A stretch of 16,971 nucleotides of DNA from Discostella pseudostelligera (Eukaryota; Bacillariophyta; Thalassiosirophyceae; Thalassiosirales; Thalassiosiraceae): NCBI GenBank assembly GCA_036940085.1, contig JALLBK010001255.1, forward strand, positions 1-16,971. Reading direction: 5' to 3'. The notes under the pieces were generated by a model that was not told where the DNA came from, did no database searches, and was given only the letters and a program-made list of their open reading frames with translations. The translations under genes and the position numbers were made by a program. Positions 243-16,360 of the stretch are shown piece by piece; position 1 is the stretch's first letter, and each line of letters begins with the position of its first letter.

Positions 243-1484
243 ATGATGCGAACACCCTCCACCACCCCCATGGCCGCCGCCGCCTTTGCCACTCTCCCCC
301 TTCTCCTCCTCTCTCTCCACCTCCCCGCCGTACAATGTGACGAACAACCACAATCCTGGATTGGCAAAACAAAAGAAAGCACCAAGGAAGAAATCGCCGC
401 CATGTTCGGCGAGGGCAAAAATTCCCCCACCTTTATTGTAGTATGCGTCGCCTTGGGAATACTACTACTCATATTCATCTTGGCGATTGCATTATGTTGT
501 CAGCGACGGAAGAAACGACAGATTGCCAAGATGAAAAATAAGAGGAATGAGAGTATTCTTCCAACGACGACGACACCATCATCAACAACTACCACGACAA
601 AGAAGAAGGTTGCGGTGGCAAACACAGCAGCGCCGCCACCGTCCTCTACCAAACTGCCAAACAATACCCCAGTAGTTCGGAATGGGGGAACAAAACATTC
701 AGCAGTAGTACTACCACCTCCTAGAATACCACAAAGTCAACCTCAACCACTGCCACCGGTACAAAGCTACTTTGGGACAATTCAATCTTCCGAAAATGAT
801 ATGGATGATGTTAGTACGTTGGGTGATCCATTTATGGTGATGGGCGTGAATGCTAGAATGGATGCAGACAACACCGTTGGCGAGAGGTGAGTTGATGATG
901 CAATTTATTTACACTTCCTTTGATTGTCTTGGTCTTTTGTGGGTCTGCCTTGTTATGATTGAATTCAGATCGGCTCGAACCTCATCTATTCCCCTTCGCT
1001 GTTTGCTGTTATTAGCATGATATCATCCCAGCAACAACTATACATTTACGGAGTGGGTCGACAACGAAGCAGTACCGGCAATGAGAGTCGAATGGATGGC
1101 AACACAACCGTATTCTCGGGTAGTAAAAACATGTTGTTTGGGGAAGCCAATACACTGGAAGAGATTTATGAGGATGTTGTGGATGGAAATTCGTCTTCGG
1201 ACGAAACCATTACGGTGTTTGCACCCAAAGGTCCATTGGGAATCGTCCTCGATAATCCTCACGGGGCGATACCTGTCGTTTATGCTGTAAAAGAGACTAG
1301 TTCGTTACGTGGTAAGGTACGCGTGGGTGATTTGTTATTGTCGGTAGATGAGGTCGATTGCCGTGGGATGAGTTCACAGAATGTATCGAAATTTTTGAAT
1401 AGTCGGAGTCAGAATGCTGAGAGGAAATTTGTCCTTGCAAGAAGTTCAGGAATGACTGGACTTGTAACTGGGGAGGCCGTCTGA
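243..1484 (+). CDS. single-pass membrane protein with cytoplasmic PDZ domain (gene 1)
   Basis: Two exons, 243-886 and 1016-1484, joined in phase 2 (AG+C gives Ser215), encode 370 residues. Residues 1-32 form a signal peptide (hydrophobic LPLLLLSLHLPAV, likely cleavage near VQC). Only about 30 residues follow outside before a membrane helix (about 63-85) and a basic stop-transfer QRRKKRQ. The cytoplasmic part has a Thr/Pro/Lys-rich linker, a conserved block (QSYFGTI, DDVSTLGDP, NARMDADNTVGES) and a PDZ domain at about 279-361, with the peptide-binding loop GPLGI, then VGDLLLSVDEVD and a helix starting MSSQNVSKFL. PDZ domains bind C-terminal peptides of partner proteins; the partner is unknown. 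The start is the first ATG of an ATG-ATG pair, and the signal peptide follows immediately. The tail is shared with gene 3 (5356-8020), but the large outside region is absent, so this may be a short receptor variant, adaptor or decoy. Family membership is seen in sequence; the role is inferred. Confidence 0.85.
887..1015 (+). other. intron of gene 1, 129 bp
   Basis: It begins GTGAGT and ends TTAG. Its removal joins the conserved tail to the PDZ exon in phase 2, at exactly the same codon as the last intron of gene 3. Reading through instead meets a TGA at 888-890. Confidence 0.9.
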
Positions 1485-2364
1485 GAATTATTTTACAGTA
1501 GCATGCGACATCCCAGTGGCAACCTCAGTAACAATACACGCGCGAGGTCATTCCAATTAATCCAATTCACCACTGATTTATAATAACTCCGTCGACATTT
1601 CACACCATGTGTGTACTCTTAAAGACTCGTAACTTCTTGACCTCGCTCCAGCAGAGTTGCATCTTGATCTTGTGCTTCTGCCCATAGAGAGGGGAGCCTC
1701 CACGTGTAATGTTGGGCTGGCGTGAGATGTTGGACAGACCAAGAGTGCAACGTCACCATTGGGCGGGTGTCTTCCTCAATATTTCCAAATTTAAATTTTG
1801 GCGGGCAAACACAACTTGCCTCCGACTTGTCCGTTCAAGCGCGCGTACACTCCGACCTCTACTTCCAGCCACCACACACAACACATCATAAGTAGGAGGG
1901 GTACATGTTATGCGTGATTCCAGGTGGCGGCATCTCCTTCTCCTTATCGTAGATCTCCGCAATGCGTAGTCTCTCTTTCTCTTTTCTCTTTCTCCTCTCC
2001 TCACTCCACATCATTCCATGCAGCTCGCCTATTATTTCTAGAGGAGTATTTTGATGTGCCGACTTTTGCGTTACGATGATGGCGATGGCGGCAACGAATT
2101 GCCAATTGCCGCCAAAACAGCAGCAACAACACCAACACCAACAGCTTAACCCAAACCCTTGAACCTTGACTCAAATAAACTTCAAACCACTACCACCACC
2201 GCCGCCGCCGCACCTCTTGCATTTTGTGGAGAAGAGAGAGAGAAGGTGAAATCAAGTTCTCTCTCTTGATCGGTGATTATTATTTACGTCGTCGTCATTT
2301 TGTTGATGGTGCACAAGTTTATCGACAATCATCGAGAGGAAGTTGTTGTGCAACACATAATTAT
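1485..2364. other. intergenic region between genes 1 and 2
   Basis: This 880 bp stretch should hold the 3' end of gene 1 and the promoter and leader of gene 2. It contains E2F-like sites at 1796-1809 and 2108-2118, a pyrimidine-rich tract at about 1966-2010 and a purine-rich GA tract at about 2226-2245. Short open frames here have no recognisable protein features. Confidence 0.6.
1796..1809 (+). promoter_or_regulatory. E2F-like site upstream of gene 2
   Basis: TTTTGGCGGGCAAA resembles the E2F/DP consensus (TTTSSCGC and the TTTGGCGGGAA type). It lies 569 bp upstream of the ATG of gene 2. A similar site lies 573 bp upstream of gene 3. Short motifs occur by chance, so function is inferred only. 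Confidence 0.35.
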
Positions 2365-4537
2365 ATGACGATTGTGCAAACTAATATGACGATGATGATG
2401 CCATCCTTCACTAGCAGCATCCTCGTCATCGTCATTCTCCTGTGTCTACAACAACAATTCGTTACTGTTGCGGCAGGTGGCAGCGGTACCAGCAACACCG
2501 GCAGTGATGACATCTGTTCGTACGACTATGAAATTAACTGTCAAGGCGGATCTCCCTACGCGGCCATCACCTCAGTTACACTTGCTTCTGCCGTCTCTTC
2601 TGGTGGGGGTGAAGCGTACGTGACATTTCATTGGGGACAAACTCATACCGATACCAATGTCGGTTCCATCCTCCAACCCATGAATACTCCTCAAACTCTC
2701 AAGGAATCACATGAGTATTATCAAGAGGGGGAATATTATGCTGGTGTTTCCATTGTGTTTGGAGCAGGTTCGGGATGTAATGGTGTGAAACTACAGGGAT
2801 ACAAATTGTTAAAGTTTGTTGGATTGAGTTGTGATGTGATTGATTTAGAGCACGAAGAAGAAGTTGATGGTAGTTTGGCAGGGACGACGAGTAGTACTTT
2901 GGCGGTGGTGAGTAGTAGTTCTCACTTTTTGCCTCGGTTTTGGTTGTTCAAATTATGTGTTAACATCTCGCATCTTGCTCGTCTTCATTATTGATTTGAT
3001 AAACACACACTCGCCACTTCAATCAGTCCCAAGAGGGTGTTGTTACCACTTCCCCGCCTCCATTGATTTCTGCTCCTGTCGCTTCTTCTTTAACCTGCTC
3101 TTTCCTCTACGAAATCGACTGTGATAATACCATCCCCTACTCAGCCACGGCGTGGGTCACATTCCACAATCCCAACTACGAAGCATCCGTGACATTTCAT
3201 TGGGGTCTGGACGACAAGGCCATTGGATCAAGAATGTTTACTCTCTCCCAACCTGATATTGTTGATTCGTTTACCTATACGAAGGAAGGAGAGTATTACG
3301 CAGGATATACGGTAGTGTTTGGAAATGGATCTGGATGTGAGGGTATGACATTCCAGGGATATAAGTTGCTTTGGTATGATGATGCAACGAATTCATGTGA
3401 TGTATTTGATGATGAGCCAAATAATTTATCATTGGTAAGTAGTTGCTGTGTGTTTTCTTATCTCTTCGCCTTGTTCGTTTCATAACCATTGACGTTTGCT
3501 GTCGTTTACTCACTCTGATCCATTTGCATCCTATTACTTGTTCAACCTATTCACACACCGTCCTTTAGGTTCAACCTACGGCGTCACCACCCATCACCGC
3601 CACCAGTACTGCTGCTTCGGCACCTGCCCCTGTTTCGACACCGGCGGAGGCAGTTGAATCCAATGCCTCCGATACATCCACATCGGCCGCATCATCAAGA
3701 TGCGCCTACGATTATGAGGTAACCTGCAACAATCCTCACTCTGCCATGGCCTACGTCACCTTCGTAAACCCCGCATACGAAGCCTCCATTGCCTTTCATT
3801 GGGATACGGCCAACACTGTCATCGAATCACGATATTACTCGAATACGTCACCATCCATGGCGAATAGTTACGATTTTGGTACCGAGGGCGTATACACTGT
3901 CGGAGCTACCATTGAATTTGGTGAAGGATATGGATGTGATGATGTTATTTATGAGACTTATCACACGGTGTCCTTTGATGGGTTGGCGTGTCAAGTTACT
4001 GAATCGAACGAAGTTGATCAAGGGACTAGTACGATGAACAATGGAGAAGGAGGAGTCGCCGCAATTGCTCCGTCTACGTCTGGTATTGTAGCGGGTGATT
4101 GGACGAATGCACCATCCATGATGAAGGTAGAAGAAACGATGACTGCATCTACTGTTACCTCGACCTCCGGTGCTGCTGTTGCATCACCTTCCTCGGGTAC
4201 AACTCCAATCAGTTCGATGACATCACCGCCAGCGACGATGCCCACCACCACCGAGCAAGAATCATCGTCGTCATCACCTCCCTTGTCAACAGTAGATGTT
4301 GCTACCACCGCAGTACCAATGTCGAGCATGATTCCGACGTTTTCACCAGTAGCAGCACAAGAAGCGTCCTCCTCAGTCTCACCTTCCGCAATGCCAAGGA
4401 GTGGTGCCGAACCCATACCAATCTCCAAGAACATGTTGACAAGTAGTGGTGTCGTTGTTGGTACTACTGTATCATCAGTATTGTCCATCATCGTGACCAT
4501 ATCTTCTGCTTGGATTGTTTCTTGCATTCTTCATTAG
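2365..4537 (+). CDS. secreted protein with three four-cysteine repeats, probably GPI-anchored (gene 2)
   Basis: Three exons, 2365-2907, 3027-3434 and 3569-4537, all joined in phase 0, encode 639 residues. A signal peptide precedes residue 40 (hydrophobic SSILVIVILLCLQQQFVTVAA). Three copies of an unrecognised domain follow, at nucleotides 2515-2838, 3096-3404 and 3701-3997 (108, 103 and 99 residues). Each copy has four conserved cysteines (C-x5-7-C near its start, GxGC, and a final C-x-V), an FHW motif and an EG-x-Y-x-x-G stretch. The pattern suggests an Ig- or PKD-like beta sandwich with two disulfides, but this is inference. A Ser/Thr/Pro/Ala-rich stalk follows, then a hydrophobic C-terminus (GVVVGTTVSSVLSIIVTISS to SCILH) with small residues before it and no basic cytoplasmic tail, as expected of a GPI signal. 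The first in-frame ATG of the signal peptide is at 2365; 2386 is an alternative. One exon per repeat points to growth by exon duplication. Gene 3 has one copy of the same domain. Ligand and function are unknown. Confidence 0.85.
2515..2838 (+). repeat. four-cysteine domain, copy 1 of gene 2
   Basis: Runs from CSYDYEINC to the final CDV. It is the longest copy, with a Ser/Gly insertion before YVTFHW, and contains YYQEGEYYAG and FGAGSGC. It is homologous to copies at 3096-3404, 3701-3997 and 5470-5769. Confidence 0.85.
2908..3026 (+). other. intron 1 of gene 2, 119 bp
   Basis: Begins GTGAGT and ends ATCAG. It is phase 0 and falls in the linker between repeat copies 1 and 2. Without splicing the frame ends at 2994 after a non-homologous sequence. 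Confidence 0.85.
3096..3404 (+). repeat. four-cysteine domain, copy 2 of gene 2
   Basis: Runs from CSFLYEIDC to CDV, with VTFHW, YTKEGEYYAG and FGNGSGC. It is close in pattern to copy 1 but lacks the Ser/Gly insertion. It is encoded alone on the middle exon. Confidence 0.87.
3435..3568 (+). other. intron 2 of gene 2, 134 bp
   Basis: Begins with the strong donor GTAAGT and ends with CTTTAG. It is phase 0 and lies between repeat copies 2 and 3. It joins LSL to VQPTASPP, the start of a Thr/Ala/Pro-rich linker. Confidence 0.88.
3701..3997 (+). repeat. four-cysteine domain, copy 3 of gene 2
   Basis: Runs from CAYDYEVTC to CQV, with IAFHW, FGTEGVYTVG and FGEGYGC. It is the most diverged of the three copies in gene 2 and the only one followed by the Ser/Thr stalk and the hydrophobic tail. 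Confidence 0.85.
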
Positions 4538-4733
4538 AGAAGCAGTAAGGTTTAATTCATATTTATTGATTACATAAACTGCTTTAGTATGACGCCAACA
4601 TAGTGCATCATTCATGCATCTCATAGTGGTGGCCGAGTATCGACGTAGTGCATTATCAGCATATTGTACCATATTATCTATATGCGTCCATGGTGGACGG
4701 ATATTGAGATCGAGATAGATGATGAGAATGAGA

Positions 4734-4753
4734 GAAGATAGAAGATAGAAGAT
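4734..4753 (+). repeat. GAAGATA tandem repeat, 2.9 copies
   Basis: Two full 7-base GAAGATA units are followed by GAAGAT. They lie in a purine-rich stretch upstream of gene 3, about 30 bp before the E2F-like site. Confidence 0.8.
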
Positions 4754-4782
4754 GGACGAGAGGTCGTCTCCGAGAGGTCTGA

Positions 4783-4794
4783 TTTTTGGCGCGG
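4783..4794 (+). promoter_or_regulatory. E2F-like site upstream of gene 3
   Basis: TTTTTGGCGCGG contains a perfect TTTGGCGC core. It lies 573 bp upstream of the gene 3 ATG, almost the same distance as the site before gene 2. Function is inferred. Confidence 0.35.
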
Positions 4795-4823
4795 TGGTAA
4801 AGTGGGATCACCGGAACAAACCA

Positions 4824-4860
4824 AAATTTGAATTTCTCTTTTCTCGCATTCAAATTCAAA
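4824..4860. repeat. AT-rich inverted repeat, intergenic element copy A
   Basis: AAATTTGAATTT at 4824-4835 and ATTCAAATTCAAA at 4848-4860 can pair (TTTGAATT with AATTCAAA). TTCTCGC lies between the arms. Related elements are at 9980-10013 and 10095-10130. This may be a promoter element or a remnant of a small mobile element. Confidence 0.5.
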
Positions 4861-5355
4861 CTTGGATTTAGGAACTGGTACATGAGACAGGACTCTCTAC
4901 GAACCCATTGAAGTTGTCGGAAACTGAAATTGGATCTTTCTCGCTTCTTCCTTCCGACGGAGTGCCGATCCCGACTCCCAGCCCCTTCTCCATTCTCGAG
5001 ATAGCTCATGCAAGCAACAACCCGAAACACGAACATGACGGTGCTCTCATCATCCGCCAACTCCTAAAAATCTTTTGTCTTGCTCGGCATTGCCGTCGCC
5101 GTCATCGTATCTCTCACTCCGTGCCGACATACCACCATCGTCCATCGTCCACCAACCCCAATAGGGAGATCTCTTGAATTATTAGCATCATCTTCGCTGT
5201 CGGTCGTCGCCGTCGGCAGTCGTCATTGCCCTTGCCGTTGGGTTGGTAGACTAGTACTAGTACAGATCCAGAGAGACAGGGTGTCATTCGTCGTCAGTCT
5301 TCGTTGTCGTTGTAGGATCGCTGCCACATTCAACATATTATACAGCACAGAAATC

Positions 5356-8020
5356 ATGAAGCGTATACTCTCCTCCTCTGCCGTCATGAACAACAACGCC
5401 AGCAGCAGCAGGCTGTCCATCCTTGCAACGCTGCTTCTTCTGTCTTCTCGATTCTACGCAACATCAGCATGCGGGTTTTATTTCAGTGTAGGATGTGAAG
5501 GCTCTTTTCCCTACACCGCCACCAACACTCTCACCTTAACATTGTCCGGTGAAGCGGAAGTAATTTACCATTGGACCGAAAAGAATACTTATTCAGGTAC
5601 AGTCTCATTGAATGGTGAAGAAACACTTGACGCTGTGTCGTTTGACTATGGAAAGACTGGAGAATATTACGTTGGTGCTACAGTGATTTGGGGAGATGGG
5701 TCGGGATGTGAGGGCACTCAGGGTGAGGATTTTAGTTTGATTTCTTTTACTGGGAATTCTTGCGACGTGGACGACGACGCTGAGCCACCGCAATATTTGT
5801 TGGAGAATGGAATGACATATGAGCCAGGAGTTCAGGATGGGGGGAGTAATGCACCTACCTCGATGGAGAGTCAGGTGAGAGAAATTATTTATAGTCGGAA
5901 ATATTTGTCAATCGTTTGGTTCTAGATGCAACATTCATTCACCGCAACATTTACACTCATTTACATTCATTTTTGGCAAAATGCAATCTCTATCTCCATC
6001 TCTTTACCCCCTCTCTCCCATTCATCGTTTTAACAACACTCAAAATATATAGTTTGAAAGCACGGATCCACCCTCCAAACTACCCACGACACCACCCCCC
6101 ACAGTCCGAAAGGTTACTCGCACCCCGACACGTCGTCCAACGACCTTTACACCCACTCTACGACCAGTCTTCATTCCTGATACCAACACTGCCGCTCCCT
6201 CAGATAAGGGTACCGGAAATCTATTCCCTTCTTCTAGCAGTAATGCACCCTCCTCGGATTCACCCACAGTTAATCCACCCCTACAAACAACCTATTCTCC
6301 AACCTCACCACCCTTTACCGATGTCATCGAATGTGGAGACAAGATCTGTGATCCAAGTGAAGATGTCATCGTTTGTTCACTCGATTGCAAAAGTTTGGAA
6401 TTGACATCGCCCGACAATAGCAATGATGTCGCCATAATTAGTCAAACTGGAGTCTACTTCCAAATGATATCCGAACGGGATATCATTCTTACCGGTATGG
6501 AGATTTTTCCCGGTAACAAGGAGGCTGGATTTGAGAATGGAGTGACAGTGTATGCTCGACGTGGAGATGTGGGATATGATACCTTGATGTCCAATAAGGA
6601 GAATGAGATTTATAGTACGAACAATGCATTAAGTGGATCGGCGGAGACGGGGGGGACAAAGATAAAAGTGAATTTACCGATGCATGAAAAGGTGTTGACT
6701 TCGGTTTACATTGTAGCAGGGAGTGGTGGCGTGGAATGCTTGACTCGGATAGGTGAGGGAAATGTAGATGATGATTTCTTGTCAATTCGCGGCGGCGAAG
6801 GAGTGGAGAATGATAAGACAACGCAGATACAATTTAAGGGATCCTTGAGGTGCGTTTCACAGTCTTCTGTTTTGTTTTCGGAGGTGGTTGCATTTCTTGT
6901 TTGAGCATTTGGTTTGATGTAACTAATGCTCCCCTCTCTCTTTGAATGAAAACAGATATGACGTGGTCGAATCCTTGACGCCCTATCCAACAATGGCACC
7001 CAATGCGGACAACACTTCAGGTCCAACCTACACATTTTCACCCACCATGGTAGGAGGAGGAATTGGTGGCGATGGACTAAATCCAGATTCGGTTACTGTC
7101 GACAAATCCGAATCTACCAACAATTCACAAACAATAATTGCCGCAGGAGCCACGGCAGGTGTGTGTGTGGCAATACTCACCTTGGCCATTGGAATGTTCT
7201 TCGTCCGTAAAAAGAAACGAGAGAATTTCCAACAATCGAAGACTAGTACGCAAGATATGACACCCGACCGGGTTGGATTGGAAATTGAAACCCAAAGTGA
7301 GACATTGTATCAACAAAACCAGCCGCAGAGTTACTTTGGGACCATACACAAGAAAGAGGGTGAAGTGGATGATATAAGTACACTGGGAGATCCGTACATG
7401 GGTGATGCTGTGAATGCTAGGATGGATGCGGACAATACTGTTGGAGAGAGGTATGTTCTAATCATTATTTGCATCTACATGGACCGTGCAGGTTCGGAAT
7501 TCATGGAAACCATTTCACACCTCTCACATCTCTTCCTGTCTATTCTCTCAGCATGGTATCAAATCAGCAACAACTCTACATCTACGGAGTTGGTAAACCA
7601 GGTGCCAATGTCGGTACGGCAAGTCGAATGGGAGAATCCACCGTATTCTCTGGTAGCAAAGTCATGATGTTTGGCGATGACACTGCCCTCGAGGATATTT
7701 ACCAAACACCTACCCCCAATGGTGATTCCACTCTTGACTTAATTACTGTCGTAGCCCCAGCTGGACCATTGGGCATTGTGCTTGACAATCCACACGGGGC
7801 ATTACCATATGTCTACGCGATTAAAGAGACCAGTTCGTTGAATGGAAGGGTACGAGTTGGCGATTTGTTACTGTCAGTCGATGAGGTAGACTGTCGAGGT
7901 ATGTCGTCTCACACTATAACAAGATTCTTGGGCAGTCGGGCTGCGAACCCGGAGAGGAAATTGGTCCTTGCGAGGGGTACTGGGATGGATCACGATGGTT
8001 CGACCGCATCGGCTGTATGA
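5356..8020 (+). CDS. receptor-like membrane protein: four-cysteine domain, second ectodomain, cytoplasmic PDZ (gene 3)
   Basis: Four exons, 5356-5874, 6053-6849, 6956-7450 and 7552-8020 (phases 0, 2, 2), encode 759 residues. In order: a signal peptide with hydrophobic SILATLLLLSSRFYATSA; one copy of the four-cysteine domain of gene 2 (residues 39-138); a Pro/Thr/Ser-rich linker; a CGDKICDPSE to SLDC motif (nucleotides 6332-6388), like the CGDGxCD modules of secreted algal and bacterial proteins; a second ectodomain of about 150 residues (GVYFQMISERDIILTGMEI, VTVYARRGD, FLSIRGGEG, ending SLRYD), a type I recall from diatom predicted proteins; a stalk; a membrane helix at about 499-522 followed by VRKKKRE; the conserved tail block QSYFGTI, DDISTLGDP, NARMDADNTVGES; and a PDZ domain at about 668-750 with GPLGI. 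The start at 5356 places the signal peptide at the N-terminus; earlier in-frame sequence lacks features. The layout suggests outside binding linked to a PDZ-assembled intracellular complex. Ligand and partners are unknown. Confidence 0.88.
5470..5769 (+). repeat. four-cysteine domain, copy in gene 3
   Basis: Runs from CGFYFSVGC to CDV, with VIYHW, YGKTGEYYVG and WGDGSGC. All four cysteines of the gene 2 copies are kept. It sits on the first exon directly after the signal peptide and is bounded downstream by a phase 0 intron, as in gene 2. Confidence 0.87.
5875..6052 (+). other. intron 1 of gene 3, 178 bp
   Basis: Begins GTGAGA and ends ATATAG. It is phase 0 and joins MESQ to FESTDPPSKL. It is the longest intron seen here. 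The exon after it must be read in a frame different from the long open frame starting at 5916. Confidence 0.82.
6850..6955 (+). other. intron 2 of gene 3, 106 bp
   Basis: Begins GTGCGT and ends AACAG. It splits an Arg codon in phase 2 and joins the end of the second ectodomain, so that the product reads SLRYDVVES. The restored RYD ending matches what I recall of this ectodomain type. Confidence 0.85.
7451..7551 (+). other. intron 3 of gene 3, 101 bp
   Basis: Begins GTATGT and ends TCTCAG. It is phase 2 and sits at the same codon (AG+C, Ser, then Met) as the intron of gene 1, showing common descent of the two PDZ exons. Confidence 0.92.
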
Positions 8021-8462: not shown

Positions 8463-9641
8463 TCATGTATACAGAACTAAAAAGAATAACACCAACACAA
8501 TCGCACTCAATATCAATATCAACCCAATCTGACATTTACTCTTGGTCTTTAACAATTTACCCAATTTTCCCATAACTACTCCCATTTGCTCTTCGGCATT
8601 GGATAAATCCTCACCTAAATTATTGAGCATGATGTTTTGACTTTCGAGCTCCTCGTGGATAGTATCGGCAATGTAGGAGACTCGTGTTACGGCCAAGTCG
8701 AGATCGTCGAGGGTTTCATCTTGTTGTTTCATCATGGAGAGTGTTTCGGCACGGAGGGGATCGTCGTGATCGTGATTGTGATTGCTGTTGTTGTTATTGC
8801 GACTATTGTTGTGTAAATCATCCTGATAGTAGTTGTTGATATTGTTGCTAGTATTACCCACCCCCCCTCCTCCGTTGCCGACACCGCCTCGACGCACTGA
8901 TAGTGCACGTTCATCCTCCAATATCTTCCGTTTCACATCATCACTTTGCATACGTAATTTGGAATCGGCAAGTGTATCCTTCGTCTTCTCTACAAAATTC
9001 TTTCGTTCATTCAATTCCACATCGGTAATATGTGGGAATTTATACCGTGATTTGTCGACTACTCGAATGGTAGTTTCGAGGTCACGCAATGTACTTTCGG
9101 AAGTTTTGATGGTGTGTTTTAATTGCTTTTTGGAATCCCGAATGGCGTGGATATTTACGGCCGTGTCGGTAGTGGAGATGAGAGTGAGGTAGTTGTTTAG
9201 TTGGGAGTTGACTTGGGATAATTTGGAAATGAGATCGGTCCGGAAGAGATGGAAGGGATCATCTTCGGAGATGTAGCTTTTGGAGGGTGATGATTTGTTG
9301 TTGCTAGAGATGGGGGATGATGGCAATGATGATGTAGGCACCGCAGTAGACGGACGGCCATCACGATCTTCGTAGTCGTAAGATGAAGATGGTGCAAGGG
9401 GTACAGCCAACTCGGAGCGCTTCAGTGACAACGACTTGCGGCTAAATTTCGACGATACGCTGACACTGCTGCTGCCACCACCGCCAGAAGACGACGAGCC
9501 GCGCAGGAGGCTGCTTTTCGAAGAAATTTGTGGCGATGACGAATTAAGGGAAACATCATCCATGGATGTCAATTCGTTGGAAGAGATGGTGTATTCGCTT
9601 TGAAGCGGCGATGACGATGCCAGCGGGTGGAACTCTGACAT
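8463..9641 (-). CDS. Qc-SNARE, syntaxin-6/SYP61-like
   Basis: One uninterrupted frame of 392 residues. SNARE proteins pair on opposing membranes and drive vesicle fusion; syntaxin-6/10/SYP61 members act at the trans-Golgi and endosomes. A syntaxin-6-type N-terminal helical domain begins at DPFHLFRTDLISKLSQV (about 127) and runs to about 235. The SNARE motif spans about 303-365 (MMKQQDETLDDLDLAVTRVS), with the central glutamine Q335 in ESQNIMLNNL placing it in the Q class. A C-terminal membrane anchor follows (about 370-391, IGLILILSAIVLVLFFLVLYT). Length is unusual: about 120 Ser-rich residues precede the N-terminal domain and a Gly/Asn/His-rich linker lies at about 251-295, making it well over 100 residues longer than typical animal or plant members. 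The start is the first ATG of the frame. It is convergent with gene 3. Family assignment is firm; the exact compartment is inferred. Confidence 0.92.
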   Translation of the reverse strand: MSEFHPLASSSPLQSEYTISSNELTSMDDVSLNSSSPQISSKSSLLRGSSSSGGGGSSSVSVSSKFSRKSLSLKRSELAVPLAPSSSYDYEDRDGRPSTAVPTSSLPSSPISSNNKSSPSKSYISEDDPFHLFRTDLISKLSQVNSQLNNYLTLISTTDTAVNIHAIRDSKKQLKHTIKTSESTLRDLETTIRVVDKSRYKFPHITDVELNERKNFVEKTKDTLADSKLRMQSDDVKRKILEDERALSVRRGGVGNGGGGVGNTSNNINNYYQDDLHNNSRNNNNSNHNHDHDDPLRAETLSMMKQQDETLDDLDLAVTRVSYIADTIHEELESQNIMLNNLGEDLSNAEEQMGVVMGKLGKLLKTKSKCQIGLILILSAIVLVLFFLVLYT

Positions 9642-9710
9642 GGTCTCTCTCGCGCTGGATTTGATTTTTAAAGTTTGAAGTTTGGATTTCTGATGTCGAA
9701 AGTTTCAGTT

Positions 9711-12479: not shown

Positions 12480-13279
12480 TCAAACCTCGCTGTGAAAAAG
12501 GCATAGTTGTCCGGTACTGGCATACATGCATCGATCCTTGAATGCCCGTTCATATGACCCAACTTGTTCTAGGCGACCCGTAGCGAGCCATTCATCAGTC
12601 GAGCGGAACATTCGAGTGAAGTCATCGTATGGTGCTACTGCTAAACGATCGCACCACCCAAAAAAATTACAGCAAGTTGGGATAAAAATGCTCCGATTCA
12701 CTTCGAGTTTTGAGTTTTCCTCCTCTAATAAAGCTTCCAGGTTGCTGATATTGAAGGGGACTTCATAATATGAGTCAGGGCGTGCATAGAAGATGTCATC
12801 GTAGGTGATATTTTGTTCTGCAGCATAATCATCAATCATCTGCAAAACATTCACCTGTTCCCGTTGAAATCGATCCTTCGTCCTTCCGTTCTCATCTGGA
12901 ATTGGTACGTTGTAATGTTCGTCAAAGCTAAATTTTGTGCTGTCCATTTCCAAGAGGCGACCTGAAAGCCCACTAAACAGGCTGACATTACTGAACGAGG
13001 TAGAAACAAACAAATCCATTGGAGGATCGGTCTGGTTGACGACATTACGAAGAAAGGAATCACGGGTGAATGCATATAGTCGTGCTCCACCAATCATCAT
13101 AATTGCCCAATGCTTGCTTTTTGGACGTTCATCTCTTTTGATAGCTCCATCGAAATTCTCAAAGGTTATGGTTGAAAATAGAGGATTTGTGCGAAGGCGA
13201 TTAATGCAATAAGAATATACACTCCTTTTCTTAGAGAAATCGTTTCGTTGTTATTGGTGTTGTTGCGCTTCTTCTTCAT
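12480..13279 (-). CDS. type II membrane glycosyltransferase-like protein, frame break near N-terminus
   Basis: The conserved part reads HWAIMMIGGARLYAFTRDSF, then LFVSTSFS, DDIFYARPDSYYEVPF, and IFIPTCCNFFGWCDRLAVAP followed by DDFTRMF. This order (R-x-D-like acidic motif, then a proline-led strand, then a DR-x-A-x-AP block) matches a group of plant and algal Golgi glycosyltransferase-like proteins of uncertain donor and acceptor. Upstream, ATG 13279 starts MKKKRNNTNNNETISLRKG followed by VYILIALIAFAQILYF, a typical type II Golgi anchor, but in another frame that stops at 13166-13168. One missing base in the T run (plus-strand A run 13175-13178) would join them into 266 residues. A 65-base intron from GTGTAT to TTTGAG would also fit but would remove the anchor. 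The C-terminus is uncertain too: the frame ends at 12480, just past an A5 run (12495-12499), while both other frames stay open for 40 or more codons. Family moderately sure, gene model unsure. Confidence 0.6.
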
Positions 13280-13535: not shown

Positions 13536-14002
13536 TTTCACAGTGTCGACTGGGAGACTGGGAAAACGAAAGCGGCAACTTGCCTCTGGACTTAAGAATC
13601 TGGATCTACCTCTGGCTTTCCCTGAGCTGAAGGGAAGAGGTAATGTTGTGGTTGTCGAGGAACTTGGGCTTGTCCGATAGGCATGACCTGTCCTTGCCGC
13701 ACGGGGAAGGGAGAAGTTTTGGCGGGAACATCCGGGCCTTCTTGCAAGTAGGCGATGTGGGTACTTATTCCATTTAATGTGCATATTCGCTCACCTGGGG
13801 CAGAAATGGCGGGAATACGGGGGCGCTCCCGCCAAACGATCCAAAATCCAATGAGAAAGATTTCAGATTTCACTCACCATCACCACTTACTATGACCATG
13901 GCATCCGACAACGACACCCAGCGTGCGTATGCGCGAGGGGGCGACAAACAACCGTCGATGATAGCCAAGTAGGAGTACAAATCAAATAAAAGTATCCCCA
14001 GC
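13536..14002. promoter_or_regulatory. probable divergent promoter region with E2F-like sites
   Basis: The stretch separates minus-strand genes from the plus-strand nitroreductase gene. It contains TTTTGGCGGGAAC (13717-13729, plus) and TCCCGCCAAA (13827-13836, the same core on the minus strand), plus AATGGCGGGAA at 13806-13815. Three GGCGGGA-type cores within 120 bp is the densest group in the window. The long open frames across it on the minus strand have no domain. Confidence 0.4.
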
Positions 14003-15541
14003 ATGTTGTCGTCCAACATCGTCTTAATCGTCACCATGTTGATCATGGGGCAATCATCGCCGTCATCGTCCTATTCACTGGCCACAATAATTTCATTTTC
14101 GGCTTGTCCTCGTCGCCCACTCCCAAGAGGTGCATCCCTCGCAGCCAATTCGCGTTATAGTAGGCATCAAATCTATCGAAGTGTCGCACTCAATGAATCA
14201 CCACCATCATCAACAGCTGAAGCATCAATACCATTGGAGATTGCAACTGCAAACACGAAGAACGCAGCGGCCATCTTCGATGCGGTGGTGAATTCAAGAT
14301 ATGCCTGTACGCGGTTTCACCGGCATCAAGAGCCAAATAATGATGATGGTGATGATGGAAAGATTCTTGGCGTTACCAACAGCAGCAGCAGCAGCAGCAG
14401 CATTAACAACGAGAACAAAACGGCAACATCATCATCGAGTATGACCACCAAACCACCACCAGAAATACCCTTGGCCTCCATCTCGAACCCACAAATCATT
14501 AAACTTGCACACCAATCCCTTATCCTCTCACAACGTGCACCTTCCGGTTTCAATGCCCAACCCTATCGCATAATACTTGTACACTCCGAAAACGATAAAG
14601 AAAGGGTATCACAATATTGTCTGGGACGGAATGCCGACCGTGTTCGTGACTCCGATTGCACAGCAATATTTTTAGCCGATGCGGGGGTAGGTTGGGATGG
14701 AGGACGATACATTGATTTCTTGAAGAGACATACGATGCAGATAAATGAAGTGGAGGAGGATACGAATAATAGGAATGCCACATCCGCTACTACTGCACGA
14801 ACACCCACGACGTCAATGACAAATGCAAAACCAAGAAGTCGTCGTTCCTTGTCACCTAGAGAATTACTCAAGGTACGACTACTCATCCTACTCTTCTCGA
14901 GTGGATATCCCCTACCATCATGTTTATCGATACCACTCTCTTTCATTGTACGACTTGGTGTATCGATACTTGCCACGATTATGAGATGGTTGCATACCAT
15001 ACAACGACGCCTCTTACTCTCGTCCACCAACACTAACAAACGAACCGTTCCATCACGAATATTCTCTCCACTACTCTCCCACCGTCACATTCAATTGTTA
15101 CCCACCCTCCATACCACCCAGACTTGGTCTCAAAAAAATACCATGCTCGTGGCCATGACCTACATATTATCCTGCACGTCGCATGGCTTGGCTACATGTC
15201 CCATGGAGGGTTTCGATGCATTTGGTATTAAGAAAGTATTGGGTGTGAATCCGATTGGGCGGTATAGTATACCTTTGATTGTGAGTACGGGAATGCCATA
15301 TCATAATCGACAATTACCAATTCTTGAGCAACAACCACAACAGCCACCAATGAAACTAATGCAACAGCAAGGCGAGGAAGACGCATTGAATCTAGCGGAT
15401 GGAGAGGAGGAGGAGACGACGACGACGGATGATGCAGGTCTAAGTCATGGAAGTGGGGCATTGTTATCACCACGATACCCGCCCGAGGACGTGATTTATG
15501 ATAATGCCTTTGGAATGCCGTTTCCACAGTACCAGCAGTAA
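14003..15541 (+). CDS. nitroreductase-family FMN oxidoreductase, long form
   Basis: One frame of 512 residues. Nitroreductase-fold enzymes use FMN and NAD(P)H for two-electron reductions; the substrate here is unknown. Motifs in order: AVVNSRYACTRFHRHQEP (about 94-111, the R-x-x-R-x-F FMN-phosphate region), LILSQRAPSGFNAQPYRIILV (about 173-193, the AxSxxNxQPW region), and WSQKNTMLVAMTYILSCTSHGLATCPMEGFD (about 375-405) with RYSIPLIVSTG (about 420-430) near the C-terminal side of the fold. Typical members have about 200-230 residues. The extra length comes from an N-terminal region with a hydrophobic start (SNIVLIVTMLIMG, then LATIISFSACPRRP), resembling a secretory or two-part plastid signal; a Ser-rich insert at about 120-150; a large insert at about 245-370 with two hydrophobic stretches; and a Gln/Glu-rich tail. 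A QN replaces the usual Q-N-LL context only slightly, so the FMN site looks intact. The start is the first ATG and carries the targeting region. Confidence 0.85.
   Translation: MLSSNIVLIVTMLIMGQSSPSSSYSLATIISFSACPRRPLPRGASLAANSRYSRHQIYRSVALNESPPSSTAEASIPLEIATANTKNAAAIFDAVVNSRYACTRFHRHQEPNNDDGDDGKILGVTNSSSSSSSINNENKTATSSSSMTTKPPPEIPLASISNPQIIKLAHQSLILSQRAPSGFNAQPYRIILVHSENDKERVSQYCLGRNADRVRDSDCTAIFLADAGVGWDGGRYIDFLKRHTMQINEVEEDTNNRNATSATTARTPTTSMTNAKPRSRRSLSPRELLKVRLLILLFSSGYPLPSCLSIPLSFIVRLGVSILATIMRWLHTIQRRLLLSSTNTNKRTVPSRIFSPLLSHRHIQLLPTLHTTQTWSQKNTMLVAMTYILSCTSHGLATCPMEGFDAFGIKKVLGVNPIGRYSIPLIVSTGMPYHNRQLPILEQQPQQPPMKLMQQQGEEDALNLADGEEEETTTTDDAGLSHGSGALLSPRYPPEDVIYDNAFGMPFPQYQQ
14381..14401 (+). 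repeat. (AGC)7 microsatellite coding for serines
   Basis: Seven perfect AGC units encode a serine run in a low-complexity insert of the nitroreductase-family protein, between its first and second FMN-site motifs. Length change here would be tolerated in frame. Confidence 0.92.
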
Positions 15542-15663: not shown

Positions 15664-16360
15664 TTATTCGCTCAATCCCAACATAGCTGCATACTCTGCC
15701 TTTCGTTTCCTAAGCATTCGTATATCCTGTTCAATATCTTTATTAGATTCCTCATCTCCATCATCATCATCATCATCATTGTTGTTGTTCTTCTTCTTTT
15801 TCTTCTTCAACTGTTGACGCAAGGCATCAATTTCTCTACGTGTGTAGGACCACATATCCATCAAATGCTTTTCATGCTTTCGTTGTTCATCACTGCTACT
15901 GGTAGTGCTGCGAATGGTGGCGCTGGTGCGTATTCTATTACTGACAGTTGTGAAAGTAAATCGTCTTCTTCCCCTTCGACTCACTAGCGCGGCAGAAGCA
16001 GCAGCAACCGCCGCAGTGGCACCAGCATTCGGAAACGATGGATTCTTCCCCATATCCCCCTCCTCCTCCTGATCCTGATTCTCCTGCTCATTATTTTCCA
16101 TCATCACCATCTCCTCGAGTTCCGCATACTGCTGTCGATGCTTAAATTTCAGATGACTCTTCAATCCACCGGTGCCCTGCTTGACACTAATTTCCTTTCG
16201 ACATAGATTGCATACGACAATTTTCTTTTGCATAATGGGCCACCGGATCGTATTTTTGGTAGTGAACCCAGTAGGGTGATTTGGGGTTGATGGGTGCAAT
16301 TAATTTGGGCACGGGGGAGGCGATGATAGCCTCAACTTGAGCTAGAAGTTCGTTGTCCAT
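15664..16360 (-). CDS. BED-type zinc-finger coiled-coil protein, frame break inside the finger
   Basis: ATG 16360 starts MDNELLAQVEAIIASPVPK and runs to SPYWVHYQKYDPVAHYAK. The following sequence, in the next frame, reads KKIVVCNLCRKEISVKQGTG then GLKSHLKFKHRQQY. Together these form a BED-type finger: aromatic W near the start, C-x2-C, then H-x4-H. One extra A in the runs at 16221-16229 (plus-strand T runs) accounts for the shift; without it the product has 231 residues. After the finger come an acidic stretch, an Ala/Arg region, a coiled coil (KHLMDMWSYTRREIDALRQQL), Lys/Asn/Asp runs, and a conserved-looking end RMLRKRKAEYAAMLGLSE. BED fingers bind DNA in transcription factors and in hAT-type transposase derivatives; no transposase core is present. 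The start could be further upstream (ATG 16576 is in frame), but the extra part shows no features. Convergent with the nitroreductase gene, 122 bp apart. Confidence 0.7.
15759..15807 (-). repeat. compound trinucleotide repeat inside zinc-finger gene
   Basis: (CAT)7 at 15759-15779 is followed by GTT and CTT units. On the minus strand it codes for runs of Lys, Asn and Asp in the coiled-coil region. Such tracts are prone to slippage and in-frame length change. Confidence 0.88.

Follow-up and report, generated by a model that had tools for sequence, protein, structure and literature searches.

The window, a stretch of 16,971 nucleotides from Discostella pseudostelligera, carries on its forward strand a cluster of three genes at 243-1484, 2365-4537 and 5356-8020. 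Rebuilt from the sequence, all three are intact and share modules. All six introns run from GT to AG, the reading frames close, and a hydrophobic, signal-peptide-like stretch lies close to each N-terminus. The preliminary description had proposed three same-strand genes with common modules; this holds, since the models are intact and the similarities are far beyond chance. Fused or split gene models are disfavoured by the separate signal-peptide-like start and stop of each gene, and also by the relatives P0006 and P0009, which are listed under transcript names.

The predicted gene 1 (370 aa) consists of two exons. The first (243-886) encodes the signal-peptide-like start (243-338), an ectodomain stub (339-410), a transmembrane segment (432-500) and the start of the tail. 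A phase 2 intron (887-1015) follows, homologous to intron 3 of gene 3, and the second exon (1016-1484) holds the remaining tail block, a PDZ domain at about 1194-1451 and the C-terminus GEAV. Gene 2 (639 aa, predicted) carries three copies of a four-cysteine Ig-like domain. Exon 1 (2365-2907) contains the signal-peptide-like start (2365-2475) and repeat 1 (2515-2838), exon 2 (3027-3434) contains only repeat 2 (3096-3404) and is flanked by phase 0 introns, and exon 3 (3569-4537) contains repeat 3 (3701-3997), followed by a stalk rich in Ser, Thr and Pro. Its hydrophobic C-terminus (4442-4534, KD 2.18) has nearly nothing beyond it, which is compatible with a putative GPI signal or a tail anchor.

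Gene 3 (759 aa, predicted) is the largest. Exon 1 (5356-5874) encodes the signal-peptide-like start (5356-5469) and one four-cysteine domain (5470-5769) and ends at a phase 0 intron. Exon 2 (6053-6849) encodes a PT-rich stalk and then a Cys motif with a jelly-roll domain (6326-6849), a second outside domain that was absent from the preliminary description. The stalk of exon 3 (6956-7450) leads to the transmembrane segment (7131-7202), a juxtamembrane part and, from 7323, the conserved tail block, the remainder of which lies on exon 4 (7552-8020) with the PDZ domain (7727-8017) and the C-terminus ASAV. A single strong transmembrane window was found in gene 1 (KD 3.44) and in gene 3 (KD 2.37). 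The rebuilt models thus agree with the proposed set of a full-length (gene 3), a tail-only (gene 1) and an outside-only form (gene 2).

The tails of genes 1 and 3 are 65.5% identical, repeat as DNA at 71-77% and have a common intron at the identical codon and phase. By eye, P0003 and P0004 show an apparent read-through of an intron at the same codon as the gene 1 intron. PDZ_6 was matched at E ≤ 0.1 by 12/12 chosen rows (best 1.5e-6) and PF00595 by 10 of the 12, and profiles of the PDZ domains of InaD-like, DLG4, Par-3 and GIPC were matched in the PDB, so that the proposed PDZ tail is supported by profile search. Against the curated Pfam cut-offs the local members fall short: gene 1 reaches 15.0 of 27 bits for PDZ_6, full-length gene 3 gives no PDZ row and its fragment gives 15.5 bits. 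The distant paralogue C240 passes, with 64.4 bits against a PDZ cut-off of 23.2. The region keeps LGI and GD motifs, which resemble the PDZ carboxylate loop and the strand that follows it, and a C-terminal valine is common across the family. A modular membrane protein family of diatoms with a PDZ tail had been suggested, and the relative P0013 is indeed named Thalassiosira sp. Elsewhere in the genome 12 loci match the tail, seven of them with a membrane span, which indicates that the three-gene set is not isolated. Compared with the orthologue P0001, gene 3 is 56-65% identical outside and 93-98% identical in tail block and PDZ, the tail block itself reaching 98% over 101 residues. In this one orthologue pair, and as far as predicted domains tell, the surface part has changed quickly and the docking tail hardly at all.

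The four-cysteine domain occurs three times in gene 2 and once in gene 3. The gene 2 repeats score 17-27 SD over shuffles against the gene 3 domain, and the four cysteines are retained in all three. A structure model of repeat 2 of gene 2 gave eight beta strands in an Ig-like sandwich, so the domain has an Ig-like beta-sandwich fold in the model. By sequence, the best PKD match was PKD_5, with E 0.088 and 13.2 of 25 bits, in one of eight members. Two queries each gave at least four matches in the 23 Mb genome, all in this contig. Homologues of gene 2 were found neither in 7996 scored candidates, where the search words probably came from Ser/Thr-rich parts, nor among 24 candidates with E up to 10. 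This absence is weak evidence, as the same searches missed the domain carriers P0001, P0006, P0008 and P0009. A tree of the domain has long branches and does not resolve the gene 2 repeats.

The jelly-roll fold of the second outside domain comes from a structure model of the relative P0005. Its four-cysteine leader is invariant in 9/9 copies, and none of the nine has a Pfam match at E ≤ 0.5. Elsewhere in the genome, the Cys-motif/jelly-roll domain adjoins an ORF of a gametolysin-type protease.

In a two-domain structure model, relatives have a SEA-like juxtamembrane domain whose elements follow one another as beta-alpha-beta-loop-beta-alpha-alpha-beta; its loop, modelled at low confidence, holds conserved basic sites. 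The domain is absent from genes 1-3 apart from the gene 1 stub DEQPQSWIGKTKESTKEEIAAMFG (339-410, forward strand), a remnant of helix 1 of the domain present in P0002-P0004. Local alignment of the stub to P0002, P0003 and P0004 gave scores of 52, 56 and 54, each reached by 0/1000 shuffles. The similarity is strong to these three only (shuffle p 0.012 for P0013, 0.029 for P0008, 0.040 for P0005, 0.13 for P0009 and 0.30 for P0011), and the stub was not among the matches at E ≤ 1 when the whole domain of P0002 was the query. R-x-L/M sites were found in 21/21 SEA-like domains examined, two or more in 17; P0016 has R-x-M only. The count covers three own-genome paralogues (C240, C556 and C251, loop sites read by eye) and 18 of the 23 relatives; left out were P0001, which lacks the domain, the incomplete P0010, and P0003, P0020 and P0023 as near-duplicates. 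The excess is weak per domain (shuffle p 0.1 or more in 20/21), with 42 sites pooled versus 22.5 expected, and the aligner may stack arginines into the columns seen in the alignment. Membership of the SEA family is without sequence support: 20 rows, 18 of them with the SEA-like domain, gave no Pfam SEA row at E ≤ 1, and profile search found no credible PDB relative. Among the 50 VIA-align matches listed for the two-domain model, most of them to the jelly-roll part, there was no SEA chain, a listing that is still compatible with a SEA fold.

The joined form, with four-cysteine domain, SEA-like juxtamembrane domain, transmembrane segment and PDZ, is present in P0006, P0008 and P0009, two of which also carry the jelly-roll. 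In a midpoint-rooted tree of the tails (P0015 excluded as incomplete, read-through stretches removed from P0003 and P0004), these three relatives lie outside the clade of genes 1 and 3 with a support of 94/97, marginally below threshold. The nearest relatives of gene 1 are P0002-P0004, and the tree has long branches for three own-genome paralogues. With the joined form outside the clade, and P0006 and P0009 listed under transcript names, genes 1 and 2 appear to be incomplete copies of this form. Judged from the sequences, gene 3 is the nearest of the three to the joined form, gene 1 is apparently a truncated copy retaining one SEA-like helix, and gene 2 is apparently an amplified outside-only relative. 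The preliminary description had derived the cluster from duplication and domain exchange, gene 3 joining the outside of gene 2 to the membrane-tail-PDZ half of gene 1. The duplication stands; the exchange is not the simplest origin of gene 3, as the joined form already exists in the three relatives, and the proposed joining is not supported. Scans of viral contigs turned up no such locus.

The best reading, whose chances we put at a little below even, is that these proteins are diatom type I membrane linkers from the outside (wall, matrix or neighbouring cell) to an internal scaffold. It draws on what is shown or predicted: the gene structures and modules, the PDZ profile, the Ig-like and jelly-roll models and the faster change outside. 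Gene 3 would be the full linker, its Ig-like and Cys-motif/jelly-roll domains held outward on PT-rich stalks, its nearly invariant tail block and PDZ facing the cytosol. The ligands of the outside domains may be wall or matrix glycans or proteins, and the PDZ may dock partners. The C-terminal valine could serve as a PDZ ligand, by which tails would link head to tail into clusters. Gene 1, with only membrane segment, tail and PDZ, could be an ectodomain-free scaffold subunit or a competitor, and gene 2, whose three outside domains would be held by a lipid or a tail anchor, a co-adhesin or decoy. The cluster may plausibly have a role in sensing or adhesion. An unlikely extension is a single-pass family that has its own PDZ scaffold and C-terminal PDZ ligand, so that the tails would form polymers beneath the membrane and the rapidly evolving ectodomains would hold on to the wall; in many members SEA-like R-x-L loops would release the outside part in the fashion of Notch or mucins, and genes 3 and 1 would be permanent, non-cleavable forms with gene 2 as a free outside partner.

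A rather doubtful alternative places the proteins in the silicalemma, the lumenal ectodomain touching the organic matrix of the forming silica and the cytosolic PDZ joining the cytoskeleton. This parallels a proposal for silicalemma-spanning proteins, and sections of three papers (PMC5647440, PMC5525289, PMC5501833) describe RXL sites, PT repeats and a single transmembrane segment in biosilica-associated or Si-responsive diatom proteins. Gene 3 has 17 xP[TS]x tetrapeptides, and the SEA-like domains of the family carry the R-x-L/M sites, although in the weak excess given above. However, the mature lumenal parts of genes 1-3 contain no R-x-L, including the SAP-type site after the signal peptide; genes 1 and 2 are free of it altogether, and of the three sites of gene 3 two fall in the PDZ and one in the signal peptide. 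A Ser-rich lumenal region was not found either: at most 6, 8 and 8 Ser per 23 residues occur in genes 1, 2 and 3, whereas TpSAP1 reaches 18/23 and TpSAP3 14/20 and 10/16, according to part of PMC5647440. Neither PMC5647440 nor PMC5501833 uses the term 'PDZ' in its main text.

It is unlikely that the proteins are signalling receptors, in which an outside ligand would cluster the tails, the tail block (DDxSTLGDPY) would recruit effectors, and genes 2 and 1 would act as ligand trap and competitor. The fast ectodomain would fit gamete or neighbour recognition, and the nearly fixed tail block and the three forms within one locus fit as well. However, Pfam gave no catalytic domain with a credible score in genes 1-3, and conservation by itself fits anchoring as well as signalling. 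A reading in which only gene 3 is functional, and duplication left genes 1 and 2 behind as neutral or decaying copies, would fit the loss of nearly the whole gene 1 ectodomain relative to its relatives and the failure of homologue searches for gene 2, but is improbable given their intact frames, the gene 1/gene 3 tail divergence (dN 0.28, dS 1.9) and the cysteines kept in every gene 2 repeat.

The locus offers a family whose intracellular docking domain is recognisable and whose ectodomains are defined, and its natural tail-only and outside-only versions would make docking and gripping separable in tests. Sections of two papers from 2017 called the connection from the wall or forming silica to the cell interior a gap, with membrane proteins hardly known (PMC5647440, PMC5525289). 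A literature search, judged by titles and abstract openings, found no paper on this PDZ-tailed diatom family.

As described in parts of the respective papers, the Silicalemma Associated Proteins (PMC5647440) and Silicanin-1 (PMC5525289) are similar in being diatom membrane proteins of type I, with a signal peptide, a long lumenal part and one transmembrane segment, and relatives of genes 1-3 also have RXL-like sites. In the former, the lumenal region is rich in Ser and a conserved cytosolic segment of 28 residues adjoins the membrane; in the latter (Sin1), the lumenal domain is NQ-rich and the tail 20 residues long. Genes 1 and 3 differ in the PDZ tail, and genes 1-3 are without lumenal RXL. 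The four-cysteine domain resembles PKD and Ig-like domains in its eight-stranded model, in faint matches to PKD_5, PKD and PKD_4, and in ColH and antibodies among its weak PDB profile matches. It differs in four invariant cysteines and a His-Trp pair; no PKD membership is claimed, as these matches are far under the cut-offs and the top PDB profile match is beta-expansin. From PHR and CBM32/discoidin-type beta-sandwich domains, the jelly-roll domain differs by its own leader and the missing Pfam match. The SEA-like domain may be set beside the Notch heterodimerisation domain and mucin SEA domains, which it resembles in its modelled juxtamembrane alpha/beta build and in a loop bearing basic sites, but it gave neither a Pfam SEA match nor a credible PDB profile relative. 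The cytosolic domain resembles known PDZ domains (PF00595/PF17820; InaD-like, DLG4, GIPC, Par-3) in profile and in its LGI and GD motifs. Animal PDZ domains mostly belong to soluble scaffold proteins to which receptor tails bind, whereas in the diatom family a single-pass membrane protein itself ends, on its cytosolic side, in the PDZ.

The window spans the whole of contig C922 (16,971 bases), which is one of 963 contigs in a 23.0 Mb genome. Gene models rebuilt from the sequence with GT-AG introns and open frames as criteria gave proteins of 370 aa for gene 1 (243-1484), 639 aa for gene 2 (2365-4537) and 759 aa for gene 3 (5356-8020), all on the plus strand and each with a signal-peptide-like start. 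In gene 1, this start is followed by about 30 residues, a transmembrane (TM) segment, the tail and a PDZ domain. Gene 2 continues with three four-Cys domains, a Ser/Thr/Pro stalk and a hydrophobic end, and gene 3 with one four-Cys domain, a PT stalk, a Cys-motif/jelly-roll domain, a second stalk, TM, tail and PDZ. Hydropathy supported a single TM in gene 1 and in gene 3. The C-terminus of gene 2 was hydrophobic, which fits a candidate GPI-anchored protein. Downstream of gene 3 lies a Syntaxin 6/10/61-type gene (8463-9704, minus; PF09177, E 3.2e-17); the window also holds a DUF7796-type protein (12480-13250, minus), a nitroreductase-family gene (13973-15541, plus) and a BED zinc finger ORF (15664-16299, minus).

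The preliminary description proposed that gene 3 joins the outside domain of gene 2 to the membrane and tail half of gene 1, and the modules common to the genes proved to be real. The gene 2 repeats score 17-27 SD above shuffles against the gene 3 four-Cys domain, and the tails of genes 1 and 3 share 65.5% identity and recur as a DNA repeat (71-77%). The sole gene 1 intron and intron 3 of gene 3 fall in the same codon, both in phase 2. In gene 2 the introns behind repeats 1 and 2 are in phase 0, as is the one behind the four-Cys domain of gene 3, which makes the repeat an exon module whose duplication can leave the reading frame intact. The best PDB match of the four-Cys profile (2515-3997, 5470-5769) was beta-expansin 1a, a plant wall protein (E 0.0054), either by chance or through distant kinship. 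Elsewhere in the genome, a Peptidase M11 (gametolysin)-type ORF on C504 (L032, 1688-4639) is followed by two ORFs with one gene 3-type Cys-motif/jelly-roll each. A further such domain lies on C542 (L031, 3174-3845, minus), near ORFs that look metallophosphatase-like by eye and have no Pfam match at E <= 0.01. A scan of a viral contig collection with gene 2 repeat 2 reported two stretches encoding a relative; a near copy of C922 may therefore be present there.

Two protein searches found no homologue of gene 2. Gene 3 retrieved 23 proteins at E <= 1 from 7997 candidates scored, including its orthologue P0001 (69% identity over 96% coverage). By reading and alignment, P0008 and P0009 contain four-Cys, jelly-roll, an extra alpha/beta domain, TM, tail and PDZ, and P0006 has the same architecture minus the jelly-roll. 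Two of these, P0006 and P0009, are listed under MMETSP transcript names; another relative, P0013, comes from the diatom Thalassiosira sp. AJA248-18. The Pfam search placed no PDZ model above cut-off in the window proteins; PDZ_6 was matched by all 12 chosen relatives, and a paralogue on C240 cleared the cut-off easily (64.4 vs 23.2 bits). The PDZ profile retrieved PDB entries for InaD-like protein, DLG4, GIPC and Par-3 (best E 1.1e-5).

The best-conserved piece of gene 3 is the 101-residue block preceding the PDZ, with 98% identity to P0001. Identity is 93% in the PDZ and falls through the juxtamembrane part (82%) and the TM (79%) to 56-65% in the pieces of the ectodomain, with the signal peptide at 34%. 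Among the 15 close-clade rows, 11 have valine as their last residue. Many PDZ ligands end in valine, and the tails could possibly be linked head to tail through this residue and the PDZ. The frozen tail block suits a signalling receptor as well as it suits a membrane linker.

In the tail tree, gene 3 groups with P0001 (98/99). Gene 1 groups with P0002-P0004 (94/91) and the two groups are sisters (94/97), both values lying just under the tool's star. P0002-P0004 retain the alpha/beta domain; gene 3 and P0001, like gene 1, have lost or lack it. The gene 1 stub aligns to helix 1 of this domain in P0002-P0004 (scores 52-56, 0/1000 shuffles as high); the signal was weaker or absent against five other relatives, and the stub was missing from a whole-domain search with the alpha/beta domain. 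Gene 1 is therefore a truncated copy of long standing that has evolved under constraint (gene 1/gene 3 tail dN 0.28, dS 1.9). The simplest history starts from an ancestor with the modules joined, which was duplicated; gene 1 then underwent loss, and in gene 2 the outside module was amplified.

Within the same genome, the tail query gave at least 18 matches, four inside the window and 14 in 12 other loci. A membrane span lies 5' of the PDZ in seven of the 12, found by hydropathy (C442, C240, C556, C661) or by eye (two loci on C848, C251); the ORFs examined on C169, C855, C420 and C336 showed none, and upstream exons of the C2 locus were not located. The alpha/beta domain was recognized in one of the seven (C848) by search and in five by eye. 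The membrane proteins of C848, C442, C240, C556 and C251 (L029, L030, L033, L035, L034, L039) form a diverse set: a SEA-like domain whose loop carries R-x-L sites adjoins the membrane, PDZ domains lie on the cytosolic side close to the C-terminus, and several members have PT stalks. The C240 protein combines an SdrD_B-like ectodomain with three stretches that resemble PDZ. No report of such a family was found in titles and abstract openings, mostly outside subscription papers, on diatom PDZ, SEA-domain or PKD-domain proteins or Thalassiosira pseudonana PDZ, and the family may nonetheless already be in print.

The alpha/beta domain of the relatives is called SEA-like from its modeled element order (beta-alpha-beta-loop-beta-alpha-alpha-beta), with a block pLDDT of 78-96 everywhere but in the loop, and from its position adjoining the membrane; Pfam and PDB profile searches gave no SEA match for it. 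All 21 SEA-like domains examined contain at least one R-x-L/M, and 17 contain two or more, nearly all within the low-confidence loop, where an Arg column is invariant in 17 aligned rows. Taken singly, the domains show only a weak excess over shuffles (p at least 0.1 for 20 of the 21), and pooling gives 42 observed vs 22.5 in shuffles. Three papers name RXL as the processing site of diatom biosilica proteins (PMC5647440, PMC5525289, PMC5501833).

The favoured reading is that the window proteins are membrane linkers, combining fold, conservation and architecture, found or predicted, with binding, location and clustering that we infer. The outside modules would grip wall, matrix or neighbour, and the constant tail and PDZ would anchor to an internal scaffold; gene 1 would be a tail without grip, and gene 2 a grip without tail. 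Against a role at the silica vesicle, a sequence scan found no R-x-L site in the mature outside parts of genes 1-3, leaving them without a lumenal RXL, and they have no Ser-rich region like that described for Silicalemma Associated Proteins (SAPs; PMC5647440). A silica-vesicle role is nevertheless the main rival to the linker reading, because the literature places RXL sites, PT repeats and proteins with one membrane span at that vesicle (PMC5647440, PMC5525289, PMC5501833).
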